33,600 nucleotides of DNA from Chloroflexota bacterium (GTDB lineage Bacteria; Chloroflexota; Dehalococcoidia; Tepidiformales; Tepidiformaceae): positions 1 through 33,600 of the forward strand of contig CAUJEQ010000052.1 of assembly GCA_963169135.1 (NCBI GenBank). Reading direction: 5' to 3'. The notes beneath the pieces are model-generated. The model saw only the letters and a program-made list of their open reading frames with translations, did no database searches and was not told the DNA's origin. This document shows positions 16,682 to 21,818 of the stretch, piece after piece. Positions within the stretch are counted from its first letter, which is position 1; the number at the start of each line of letters is the position of its first letter. The position numbers and the translations under genes are program-made.

Positions 16682-16794
16682 GTCGACCCCTGGGAGTTCC
16701 TGCGAAATGGGCAGGATTGTAAGCCTAAGGCTAGCACAGGTTCGGTATGGCTTTCGCGAACCCTGCGCCGGCGGCAGATCCGGCATCCTGCTGG

Positions 16795-17505
16795 CTACAG
16801 GATCAGGTTGAAGATGTCGTCGTAGACGAGGCCAATGAGCCACCTCAACGGGCTCAGTTCCGGCGCGATGAACCCGATGGCGATGAGGGCCATCAGGATG
16901 CCCGGACCGTACGGCTCGAGGCGTTCGAGACCGCGGGCCGCTTCACGCGGAAGTATCCCGACAGCAACCTTGAAACCATCAAGCGGGGCGATGGGTATCA
17001 GGTTGAAGATGCCCAGGAGAATATTGATGCTGATGATGAAGAAAAGGAACAGCCAGAGAAAGTCCTCGCCCGAACCGCGCTGGATGATGTTCTCGATGCT
17101 GCCGAACCTGGTTTCGACGAATCCCATCTTCAAAGGCAGCGCCGCCAGTGCGGCAAAGAAGAAGTTTGAGGCCGGCCCCGCGAACGCCACGATGGCATTG
17201 CCGCGCCTTGGCCCGCCACGCAGGCGCCACGGGTTCACGGGAGTCGGTTTCGCCCACCCGAACCCGAACAGCAACACCAGGACGGACCCGATCGGGTTCA
17301 GGTGGGCCAGCGGGTTGAGTGTGAGGCGGCCCGCCCGCGCGGCCGTGTCGTCACCGAGTTCGTGCGCTGCCCAGGCGTGGCTGAACTCGTGAAAGGCAAG
17401 GCCGGTGAAGATTGCGACTGCGGTGGCAGCCAGATAAATAAGAAGGACCTCGGGATTCTCCGCGAGGTCTTGGAAATACCAGATCATGCGCAGAAATGTT
17501 AGCAC
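16795..17505 (-). CDS. Site-2 protease family (M50) membrane metalloprotease
   Basis: GLAFHEFSHAWAAHELGDDTAARAGRLTLNPLAHLNPIGSVLVLLFGFGWAKPTPVNPWRLRGGPRRGNAIVAFAGPASNFFFA; HEFSH zinc motif. Confidence 0.92.
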   Translation of the reverse strand: MLTFLRMIWYFQDLAENPEVLLIYLAATAVAIFTGLAFHEFSHAWAAHELGDDTAARAGRLTLNPLAHLNPIGSVLVLLFGFGWAKPTPVNPWRLRGGPRRGNAIVAFAGPASNFFFAALAALPLKMGFVETRFGSIENIIQRGSGEDFLWLFLFFIISINILLGIFNLIPIAPLDGFKVAVGILPREAARGLERLEPYGPGILMALIAIGFIAPELSPLRWLIGLVYDDIFNLIL

Positions 17506-17777: not shown

Positions 17778-18860
17778 GTGCCACGCAGTCTCATTCCACT
17801 TTCGCTCGGGACGTTCGCTGTTGTTGCAGCGGTTGTCGCCTGGGCTGTCTTCGGCCCACGCCAGACCGGGACGGACGTGGCGCCAATGGTTGCCGCACCC
17901 CTCGGCGACGTGCGCGCTATCGCGTACTCCGTCCCGGCCGAGGGTGGCGTCGACCACCTGGTTGTCCGCAATGCCGCGACGGGCTCAGAACCGGAGCTCG
18001 TCGCCGTGATTCCGCACTTCCCCGGCTTCCATGCCAGGGGTTCGGCGTCTCCTCTCGGTGACCGGGTAGCCGTCCTGTCCGTCACCTCCGGCGTGTTTGC
18101 GTCGCTCTACGTGGTCGATGTCGCAGCTCGCGAGACCACCGCCGTGAACGGCAGCCTGGACTATCTCAGCGCGTTGGCGTGGTCCCCGGATGGCCAGCGC
18201 CTCGCGGCAGTCCAATCTTCCGCCGAGGACGGCTCCAGGGTGGCGCGGGTGCTCGAATTCGATGTCGCCGCCGGTGCGGCCCGGATGGTGGCTGAGTTCC
18301 GGAATCCATTCGCGGTGGCGCCGGTCGGGTACAGCATCGATGGCGAGCGGCTGTTTGTCGTTGTCGTCGACGAGACCGGGTCGCACCTCTGGGAACGGCG
18401 CGGTGGCGAAGTCCGGCGCCTGGCCGAACTCAGCCCCGGACGGACGCGAGACTGGGCACTCAGTCCGGGAGGCTCACGCCTGGCGTTCGTCGATGTGCTC
18501 GGGGGGGGCTCGCGTACCTACGTCGGCCGTGTCCTGACCATCGCAACCGGCACCATCTCCACGCAGCCGGCGGAAAAGGACCAGCTCGGCGCCGCCTGGG
18601 AACCGGGATCGCCAGTCCCGGTGTTTGGCGGTCCCGGGGGCGCCCTGGCACTGGAAGAGCCCGGCCCCGAAGGGGGCTACGTGGTCCCGCTGGACTGGGC
18701 CCCGGCAGGCGACACCTGGGTCGCAACCGTCATCGTCCCCGGCGCGGATCGGACGCTCCGCGCCGAGGAGTTCATTGAGCTACAGACCCGGTCGTCCCGC
18801 GAGCGGATTGCGGTCGAACCGGGATCATCATTCTTCGGCTGGGTCCGAAGCCTCGACTAA
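17778..18860 (+). CDS. Membrane-anchored beta-propeller (TolB/WD40-like) protein, paralog A
   Basis: GTG start: MPRSLIPLSLGTFAVVAAVVAWAVFGPRQ... (N-terminal TM), repeats such as LSALAWSPDGQRLAAV and TRDWALSPGGSRLAFVD. Confidence 0.75.
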   Translation: MPRSLIPLSLGTFAVVAAVVAWAVFGPRQTGTDVAPMVAAPLGDVRAIAYSVPAEGGVDHLVVRNAATGSEPELVAVIPHFPGFHARGSASPLGDRVAVLSVTSGVFASLYVVDVAARETTAVNGSLDYLSALAWSPDGQRLAAVQSSAEDGSRVARVLEFDVAAGAARMVAEFRNPFAVAPVGYSIDGERLFVVVVDETGSHLWERRGGEVRRLAELSPGRTRDWALSPGGSRLAFVDVLGGGSRTYVGRVLTIATGTISTQPAEKDQLGAAWEPGSPVPVFGGPGGALALEEPGPEGGYVVPLDWAPAGDTWVATVIVPGADRTLRAEEFIELQTRSSRERIAVEPGSSFFGWVRSLD

Positions 18861-18882
18861 TCAAACGTACGGAGCTCACTCT

Positions 18883-20004
18883 TTGGCTGTTTCACGACGG
18901 ACCATGGCCGCACAAACCAGTGTCTCCCGCCTCATCATCGGAGTGACGGTGCTGGCCGCCATCATCGCCATCGCGCCGATTGTCGCCGCTGCCTTCGGCA
19001 TTTCAGGGCAGCGGGTGGTCCCGCGCACTGCCTTCGCGAGCGCACCGTCCGGCAACTACGCCGTGGTCTCGAGGACCGAAGGCCAGTACGACATCGTGGC
19101 CGTCGCCTGGGCCGAGAACCCCGGCGCCATCACCGAGGTGGCCCGTGTCCCGCACATCGACGGCATGGGCGCCACGGGCTCGGTCTCTCCCGATGGAACG
19201 AAGGTCGCCCTGGTGGCGGTCGATGCCGGGACCGCCACGCGACCGGTCGCATCGCTGATTACGGTCGACCTGGTAACCGGCGAGCTCTTCCGTGCAGCCC
19301 TGAACATCGAGCCGAACCAGGTGCCTGTCTGGGCGCCTGACAGCCAGTCGCTTGTGGTCACGCGAGGTGTGGCCTCGGGCACCTCGTCCGGCGCGATACA
19401 GGTCCTCCGCGTGGCCCTCCGCGGCACCGAGGACGTGCTCTGGACGCGCGACGCTGTTCTGGCGGTGTTCCCCGTCGGCTACGATCCCTCCGACTCGCTG
19501 ATCGCCGTGGTCATCGACGGGCGGGGTTCGACGGTCACACGCGCCGGCACAGACACGCTCTCGCTGGGGACGGCTATCACCCGGGACTGGCAGCTAAGCC
19601 CCGACGGCGCCCGGCTTGCCTACGTGGAAGCGAACACCGACAACGGCCTGCGTTACGTGGCTCGGACCGTCTCGCTGAGCGGCGCCACATCCGTCCAGGC
19701 ACAGTCGCTCTCTGCCGAAATCACGGCACTGGGCGTAGCCTGGGAGCCCAAGAGTGATCACCCGACCTTCGGAGTCGAACCAGGCCAAGAGACCGGCGGC
19801 GTCAGTGCCCAGGCCCTCAAGGCCGATGCCGGCGGATTCGACGTCCCCCTGGCATACGCGCCCGACGGCTCAACTCTGGCTGTGATGCGCTGGTCGGGTG
19901 AGAGCTTCCTCGATGCGGGTTCCGCGCGGTTGGAGCTGGTGGATGCGTCCGGCCGTGCCGCTATAGATGACTACACAAGGTTCCTCGGATGGGCGCGACG
20001 CTAG
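18883..20004 (+). CDS. Membrane-anchored beta-propeller-like protein, paralog B
   Basis: TTG at 18883 with GGAG 8 nt upstream (alternative ATG 18904, MAAQTSVSRLIIGVTVLAAIIAIAPIVAAAFG...); VSPDGTKVALVAV, TRDWQLSPDGARLAYVE and similar repeats. Confidence 0.75.
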   Translation: MAVSRRTMAAQTSVSRLIIGVTVLAAIIAIAPIVAAAFGISGQRVVPRTAFASAPSGNYAVVSRTEGQYDIVAVAWAENPGAITEVARVPHIDGMGATGSVSPDGTKVALVAVDAGTATRPVASLITVDLVTGELFRAALNIEPNQVPVWAPDSQSLVVTRGVASGTSSGAIQVLRVALRGTEDVLWTRDAVLAVFPVGYDPSDSLIAVVIDGRGSTVTRAGTDTLSLGTAITRDWQLSPDGARLAYVEANTDNGLRYVARTVSLSGATSVQAQSLSAEITALGVAWEPKSDHPTFGVEPGQETGGVSAQALKADAGGFDVPLAYAPDGSTLAVMRWSGESFLDAGSARLELVDASGRAAIDDYTRFLGWARR

Positions 20005-21818
20005 AACGATTCGCCGCGATGGCGGCCCTCGTCGCGCTTGCGTGTGCGTTCGCCGTCGGCAGTCCCGAATCGGGGAAGGCCGACCACTACGCGTGCCACC
20101 TGCCGAACCGTGGCTGGGGTTTCGACACCTACGAGTTTGAGGACTATGGCCAGCAATACGGGCGCGTGATCGAGCTTGCCGCCCGCGGGCTTGCCGTGCC
20201 GCAGGCGTACACGCTGAGCAACGGCGAAGTCATCGACGTAACCTACCAGGGCGTGGAAAGCGGCCCACGCTCGGCGCGCCTCCCGGCGGACAAAGCGAAC
20301 AGCATCCCCCCGTCGCTGTACAAAGCGATTGCCTGGATCGAATCCGACTATGGCAACGCGTCCCACAGCACGCCCTATGGCGGCGTCGGTTCCATCCTCC
20401 TGTCGATGGACTGCGGCTACGGCATCGGTCAGATCACGAGTGGCATGGGTCACTTGGCGGCCCCGCCGGCGCTCGACGTGCGCGTCCCTTCCGCACGCCA
20501 GGCGATCATCGGCACACATCCGATGTTCAATGTCGCCGAAGGTATTCGCATCCTGGCCGACAAGTGGAATAACGCCCCCGATCTCCGCCCTGTCGCCGGC
20601 AATGGCGACCCGCTGGCGCTCGAGGACTGGTACTACGCCGTCTGGAGCTACAACGGTTTCGCCTTCAGCAACCACCCCCTCAACCCGGCGAAGGACCCGC
20701 TCCGCGGGACAGTGTGGAACTGTGGAGACCCCAACGCACCGGGCTACGGCGTGTTTAACCGAAGCGACTACACCTATAACGAGGTGGTATACGGCTGCTT
20801 GCGCTACCCGCCGGTGGCGAAGGGCGCCACGTACCCGCCGCCGCTGGGCCAGCCCGGGGCACCGCCGCCCGCCGCTGGCGGCGCCAAGTTCGAGCCCGGG
20901 GACGCCGGCGTCGTCACCGGCACGGGCAACTGCCTGAATCTTCGCGCGGAACCGGCAAGCCCAACCGTCGTCACCTGCCTCTCCGACGGGACGGTGGTCA
21001 CCGTCCTGGGCGGTCCGGCTTCGGCCAATGGGCTGACCTGGTGGAACATCCAGGCGGCAGAATTCACCGGCTGGTCGGCCGACGAGTTCCTGACGAAAGT
21101 CACCAAACCCGACCCCGAAGCTCCCGTGAACCCGGAGGGCCGGCTCTGGCCGCCCCAGGTGTTCACGATGCCCAGCCTCACTGTGCCCCAGGTTGCATCG
21201 GCGCTCACAGCCGAGAACTACAACAGCTGCTCTGACGGGAGCTTCGACGAAGGCTGCGCTTCGATGGACTTCCCCACGACGATCCCCGAACTCGAAATCG
21301 TGCCCCACTTCGACACGACGCCGCCGGTCGATCCCGCTCTTGCGGCAGTGTTCCTGGGGAACCCGCAACTCCAGGTCGTTGGCGACCGCGCCGTTTCCAT
21401 CACCGCGAGCAAGACCAGTGCTACGTCGTCTGCCATCACCGTCCGCAACACGGGGACGTGGATCGCCCCATTCCGGGTGCGGACATCCGCCTCCTGGCTG
21501 ATCGTCCGGCACCCGAGCGACCCGCCAGGCCGCGTGGTCGACGGCGGCGTCGCCATCGGCAGCGAGACAGACGTGGTTGTGCAGAAGACGCCCCGGATCG
21601 CAACCCGTGGCCGGGACTCGGAACTGCAGATTACCGTCGATGCGGCCAACCTCCCAGAGGGTCAGCTCACCGGCACGATCATCATCGAGCCGCTGCTGGG
21701 CGGCGGCGGCATCACGACCATCACCGTGCAGGTCACCCGCGACAACACCGGAGGTGGAGCCCCGGGCCCCGGCTTCAAGTCGGTGCTGCCCGGGATCACC
21801 TACGAGGGCTCGCCGTAG
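19989..21818 (+). CDS. Secreted lytic-transglycosylase-like protein with SH3b-like and Ig/BACON-like C-terminal domains
   Basis: Signal peptide; IPPSLYKAIAWIESDYGNASHS...CGYGIGQITSGMGH (SLT-type Glu and GYGIGQ motif); GVVTGTGNCLNLRAEPASPTVVTCLSDGTVVTVLGG...WWNIQAAEFTGWSADEFL (SH3b-like); late NTGTWIAPFRVRTSASWLIVRHPSDPPGRV. 16-bp overlap with the preceding gene. Confidence 0.82.
   Translation: MGATLERFAAMAALVALACAFAVGSPESGKADHYACHLPNRGWGFDTYEFEDYGQQYGRVIELAARGLAVPQAYTLSNGEVIDVTYQGVESGPRSARLPADKANSIPPSLYKAIAWIESDYGNASHSTPYGGVGSILLSMDCGYGIGQITSGMGHLAAPPALDVRVPSARQAIIGTHPMFNVAEGIRILADKWNNAPDLRPVAGNGDPLALEDWYYAVWSYNGFAFSNHPLNPAKDPLRGTVWNCGDPNAPGYGVFNRSDYTYNEVVYGCLRYPPVAKGATYPPPLGQPGAPPPAAGGAKFEPGDAGVVTGTGNCLNLRAEPASPTVVTCLSDGTVVTVLGGPASANGLTWWNIQAAEFTGWSADEFLTKVTKPDPEAPVNPEGRLWPPQVFTMPSLTVPQVASALTAENYNSCSDGSFDEGCASMDFPTTIPELEIVPHFDTTPPVDPALAAVFLGNPQLQVVGDRAVSITASKTSATSSAITVRNTGTWIAPFRVRTSASWLIVRHPSDPPGRVVDGGVAIGSETDVVVQKTPRIATRGRDSELQITVDAANLPEGQLTGTIIIEPLLGGGGITTITVQVTRDNTGGGAPGPGFKSVLPGITYEGSP

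Follow-up and report, generated by a model that had tools for sequence, protein, structure and literature searches.

Lytic transglycosylases of the SLT family (GH23; PF01464), such as Slt70 and MltC, carry a catalytic Glu in an ES motif together with GLMQ, N/G and Y-N motifs, and they are exported enzymes with wall-binding modules. Among the beta-propellers of the cell envelope are TolB of the Tol-Pal system and LpqB of the MtrAB-LpqB system in Actinobacteria, the latter an extracytoplasmic protein tied to envelope regulation. In Chlamydia, a lytic transglycosylase lies near tol-pal (PMC7391070). The literature that we searched, with most subscription journals outside its scope, contained no propeller-transglycosylase system in Chloroflexi and no study on the remodelling of the peptidoglycan wall of Tepidiforma. 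Among the cultivated genera of Dehalococcoidia, this one is reported to be alone in containing peptidoglycan; it is flagellated and reportedly monoderm without outer-membrane genes, its sacculi, beta-lactam sensitivity and S-layer have been demonstrated, and neither DAP nor Lys was found in its wall hydrolysate (PMC10284905).

The window analysed here is a stretch of 33,600 nt (contig CAUJEQ010000052.1, positions 1 to 33,600; assembly GCA_963169135.1) from a Chloroflexota bacterium of the Tepidiformaceae. The initial annotation proposed a three-gene envelope cassette in this window, made of two anchored propellers and a lytic transglycosylase-like protein, and all three ORFs (P1, P2 and P3) were found at the coordinates that it gave (Table 1). 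Judging from sequence, we consider it fairly probable that P2 and P3 form a propeller-lytic transglycosylase pair with P1 as a duplicated accessory propeller, in which a wall-directed enzyme is tethered or regulated by the propellers.

Table 1. Positions of the cassette genes, their junction and the P3 domains in the window
Feature	Coordinates	Strand	Remarks
P1, N-terminal hydrophobic anchor and PD40-type beta-propeller, accessory paralog	17778..18860	+	360 aa, GTG start; orthologs in 26/37 family genomes; own clade in tree
P2, N-terminal hydrophobic anchor and TolB-like beta-propeller, core partner	18904..20004	+	366 aa, ATG start; read as seven blades; 37/37 family genomes
P3, secreted SLT + SH3b + BACON/Ig-like protein, probable lytic transglycosylase	19989..21818	+	609 aa; 37/37 family genomes
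P2/P3 gene overlap	19989..20004	+	16 nt; length constant in nearly all family members
SD-like site for P3 (AAGG, AGG codon) inside the last codons of P2	19977..19981	+	codon and run analysis
P3 SLT domain, residues 100-278; catalytic Glu118 codon 20340-20342	20286..20822	+	motifs invariant in 41/41; SLT matches in relatives
P3 SH3b domain, about residues 303-372	20895..21104	+	SH3_3 in relatives; strands in model; LysM, linker or nothing in some relatives
P3 C-terminal Ig-like/BACON-like domain, about residues 452-586	21342..21746	+	BACON matches in relatives; Foldseek matches to PapD/ASH/BACON-type domains

Conservation of the locus and apparent duplication of the propeller

Compared with two close relatives, P1, P2 and P3 of the window had dN/dS values of about 0.06-0.18, and the three are thus genes under purifying selection. 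The family sample comprised 37 Tepidiforma-like genomes of the class Dehalococcoidia, including Tepidiforma flava and Tepidiforma MAGs; many of them are incomplete MAGs, and gene starts in the relatives were set by homology. P2 and P3 were present in every genome and in constant order, which excludes rare co-occurrence, one of the two outcomes that would have spoken against the cassette. P1 was found in 26 genomes; it was absent from genus g12, G009 and G011, and the locus of G008 lay at a contig edge. Because P1 was missing from 10 of the 36 assessable genomes, the core is P2-P3 and not three genes. The proposed cassette therefore stands for its second and third genes, and the first is dispensable. 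A TAG occurs within the P3 frame of G018, and P1 of G021 is spread over two reading frames (L054:5752-6881); either could reflect a sequencing error or genuine decay.

The genes adjoining the cassette are those of an M50-like peptidase, tyrA, aroA, gmk and an EF-G-like gene, and in most family members the cassette is divergent from the run of the first four. The M50-like membrane peptidase gene (window 16795-17505) forms a divergent pair with the cassette, with an intergenic region in common, and this pairing is found in most family members and also in family f2. In many relatives a short gene for an HD-domain protein of about 160 aa lies between the peptidase gene and tyrA (L069:11228-11710, L087:5415-5906); the window is without it, and there the two genes are almost adjacent (16786-16795). 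A DUF6391 gene directly follows P3 in some relatives, one of family f1 (L069:5722-6207; Pfam E 1.3e-35) and one of family f2 (L087:9298-9792), and it is absent downstream of P3 in the window. A DNA pattern search detected no extra copies of the cassette in its own genome. We rejected a recently mobile cassette, as the synteny beside tyrA-aroA is conserved and each genome has one copy.

P1 and P2 each have one N-terminal hydrophobic stretch followed by a PD40-type propeller. They had been described as adjacent anchored paralogs, and this was borne out by an alignment with 32% identity over 350 aa (E 2e-28) in which the shared sequence blocks are present. The AlphaFold2 model of P2 (pLDDT 90.3, pTM 0.85) matched TolB in fold (1crz, E 1e-10; Foldseek), as did the propeller sequence profile (E 2.2e-23), and TolB structures were the top matches by both approaches. 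A tree of 72 propellers resolved into three supported groups, each forming one side of a tree branch in an unrooted reading: P1, P2, and the propellers that other families have singly. Elsewhere in the class there was one propeller only, upstream of P3. In the simplest reading, P1 and P2 look like the products of a single duplication in the ancestor of the family, with P1 lost afterwards in several lineages.

Gene overlap and linkage of P3 to the propeller

The reported 16-bp overlap of the third gene with the second is real, and nearly all family members share its length, with the P3 start lying 16 nt before the end of P2. The GW codons of the closing strand of P2 provide the start of P3 (GG-ATG-G), and an SD-like run is present in the P2 codons just before it. 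Of 30 Arg residues at this site, 28 use the rare codon AGG, compared to an AGG share of 6.8% among the Arg codons of these genes (binomial p 7.5e-31, with relatives that are not independent); where Gly or Glu takes the place of Arg, the codons are still purine-rich. A 5-nt SD-like run was found at 25 of 36 P2 ends versus 1.8% of internal positions; the homologous ends of P1, at which no gene begins, had it in 0 of 22 cases. The window's own run is the 4-nt AAGG. These codon preferences point to selection for ribosome binding beyond the protein sequence. With the constant overlap and the AGG-based Shine-Dalgarno site, the translation of P3 is very probably coupled to that of P2. The co-translation postulated for the cassette thus agrees with an invariant overlap that has an SD-like site embedded in it, and with conserved synteny.

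Across the class, P3 was detected in 98 of 245 genomes, with one copy in each (the G170 match consists of two adjoining pieces). A propeller was immediately 5' of P3 in 74 of these 98. The other 24 included 14 genomes of genus g38 (family f21), and some were split by contig ends. In g38 and some others, P3 is kept with no adjacent detectable propeller, so the enzyme can do without one in these genomes. In a sample of the phylum, a P3 homolog was present in 12 genomes outside the class. On a Roseiflexus-labelled contig (L066:855-3300) the propeller is adjacent to it; on a Proteobacteria-labelled contig (L065:7767-9410), whose label may be wrong, no propeller was seen and the C-terminus is likely of the N_BRCA1_IG type.

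It is possible that P3 cuts the wall and that the propellers are separate envelope proteins, binding glycans, the S-layer or peptides, which merely share its operon, the coupling serving only to balance expression. The genomes with P3 and no adjacent propeller would fit such an arrangement, as would the S-layer of Tepidiforma (PMC10284905) and the many ligands that propellers bind. However, the constant overlap and the apparently selected coupling site within P2's own codons suggest a more direct partnership, and P3 and the propeller are adjacent across many families of the class, so we think independent propellers rather unlikely. Instead, the tight linkage and the restriction to wall-building genomes suggest that the propellers serve or control the P3 enzyme.

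The SLT assignment of P3 and its association with the wall

The match of the window's P3 to the Pfam SLT model was under the cut-off (12.1 bits against 21.3, E 0.15). Naming its domains SLT, SH3 and BACON, as had been done at the outset, was nevertheless sound because the matches are clear in relatives. Among 41 P3 homologs, Pfam identified SLT in 11 (best E 1.3e-5), SH3_3 in four (best E 1.2e-8), BACON in three, BACON_2 in three (2e-7) and LysM in two (3.9e-10), and at the P3 locus the SLT cut-off was exceeded in L087 (24.0 bits), G010 (27.0) and G040 (25.4). The middle module varies among relatives, being SH3b, LysM, a Pro/Thr-rich linker or nothing. The putative catalytic Glu motif was recovered as well: all 41 homologs have E118, G143, G145, Q148, Y221 and N222, N181 is kept in 40, and Glu118 is followed by Ser in 34 and by Ala in seven. 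The motif order is that of GH23/SLT enzymes. Profile alignment gave E values of 2e-4 for Slt70 and 0.007 for MltC, with motifs in register, 0.22 for MltD, with no useful alignment, and 0.49 for MutY as the negative control.

The AlphaFold2 model of P3 was confident (pLDDT 87.9, pTM 0.80). In a Foldseek search of PDB and viral structures, only matches of the Ig-like/BACON or SH3b kind were apparent among those listed, the residues covered being judged from match length and descriptions. The whole P3 profile had no match in the PDB, and a profile of the SLT domain had non-significant matches only, the best being EtgA, a type III secretion transglycosylase (E 0.08). From the motifs and profiles, P3 is probably a GH23/SLT lytic transglycosylase. 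There were four other SLT matches in its own genome, so there are candidates for a wall enzyme besides P3, and the notion of a sole transglycosylase was ruled out. In the small genome of G011, no SLT matches were found besides P3.

The distribution of P3 follows that of mraY, which occurred in 105 of the 245 class genomes. Both genes were present in 94, P3 only in four, mraY only in 11 and neither in 136 (Fisher 1.8e-49, with genomes that are not independent events). All four P3-only genomes had penicillin-binding transpeptidases; thus, each of the 98 genomes with P3 has wall-synthesis genes. In a smaller sample outside the family, P3 was found in 8 of 12 genomes with wall genes and in none of 12 others (Fisher 0.0013). 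According to a published reconstruction, peptidoglycan was lost once in the class Dehalococcoidia (PMC10284905), and the association therefore rests largely on one ancestral loss, which is why the genomes are not independent. The suggestion that the third protein is an extracytoplasmic, wall-directed enzyme accords with its SLT motifs, with the replacement of SH3b by LysM and with the occurrence of P3 only alongside peptidoglycan genes.

Instead of acting in general growth or division, P3 might be a transglycosylase specialised in opening the wall for one particular envelope machine, such as a flagellum, a pilus or a secretion system. The nearest, non-significant PDB match to EtgA and the flagella of Tepidiforma would be in line with this function, but the conserved neighbourhood showed neither flagellar nor pilus genes, and flagella and peptidoglycan were lost at one node (PMC10284905), so that wall and flagellum predict a similar distribution; we consider such a role very unlikely. 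It is highly improbable that P3 is a glycan-binding relative of SLT enzymes, without catalytic activity or with a different one, that acts on the S-layer or surface glycans: its distance from characterised SLT enzymes, the listed Foldseek matches, apparently on other domains, and the wall hydrolysate without detected DAP and Lys (PMC10284905) would allow it, but the catalytic Glu and all the SLT motifs are invariant in the 41 homologs, and P3 is absent from genomes without peptidoglycan genes although S-layers occur there (PMC10284905).

Proposed mechanism and comparison with known systems

In the propeller-transglycosylase pair that we favour, P3 would be exported and would cut the glycan strands of peptidoglycan with its SLT domain through Glu118, being held on the wall by SH3b, or LysM in some relatives, and by its BACON/Ig-like C-terminal domain. 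P2 and P1 would stand outside the membrane on their N-terminal anchors as TolB-like propellers and may tether, localise or restrain P3. The translational coupling would ensure that the enzyme is produced along with its partner. We infer the enzymatic activity, the contact between P2 and P3, and the tethering or regulation from the gene structure, the conservation, the coupling site, the motifs and the association with peptidoglycan genes. A role of the propeller as tether or restraint would be the most economical, and its nearest analogy is TolB together with the Chlamydia transglycosylase.

More tentatively, the pair may be a module specialised in controlling a lytic transglycosylase by means of a propeller. 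Such a module would be ancestral in the walled Dehalococcoidia, where it is present only with peptidoglycan, and the final codons of its propeller gene would act as ribosome-binding site and start of the enzyme, so that the enzyme would rarely be made without its partner. P3, usually in a single copy, tracks wall-synthesis genes across the class and may mark its walled members. For a lytic transglycosylase of an S-layered monoderm, the propeller is a partner that can be put to the test, and the P2 codons that double as the translation start of P3 are a clear example of translational coupling that appears to be under selection.

The arrangement of an anchored propeller with an SLT protein had not been recognised as a named system, and the libraries and papers that we searched likewise held no name for it. 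P1 and P2 have a TolB-like fold, yet they are neither TolB nor LpqB. Their scores against the TolB model were 20.8 and 19.9 bits, far under the cut-off of 343. Pfam found no N-terminal TolB domain ahead of the propeller, where there is only a hydrophobic helix, and no Tol-Pal partner genes were among the called genes of the window and neighbourhood. In contrast to TolB, P1 and P2 are membrane-anchored, and their host lineage is reported as monoderm. They share with LpqB the extracytoplasmic propeller; a Gmad1 match was obtained in one of 56 propeller relatives (E 3.2e-8) and in neither window protein by Pfam, and mtrA-mtrB were not among the genes upstream of or alongside the cassette.

P3 resembles the SLT lytic transglycosylases in its catalytic Glu within an ES motif, in G-x-G-Q-I-T as the counterpart of GLMQ, in the order of its N/G and Y-N motifs, and in its export and wall-binding modules. 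It differs from them in the insertions between motifs, in its BACON/Ig-like C-terminus and in the propeller gene upstream, and it belongs to a divergent subfamily with most members under the Pfam cut-off. With the EnvC/NlpD-amidase pairs, P2-P3 would have a proposed logic in common, in which a wall hydrolase is under the control of an envelope protein that is not itself an enzyme (PMC7391070 and general knowledge); here the partner is a propeller, the enzyme is a probable lytic transglycosylase, and the control is what we propose.
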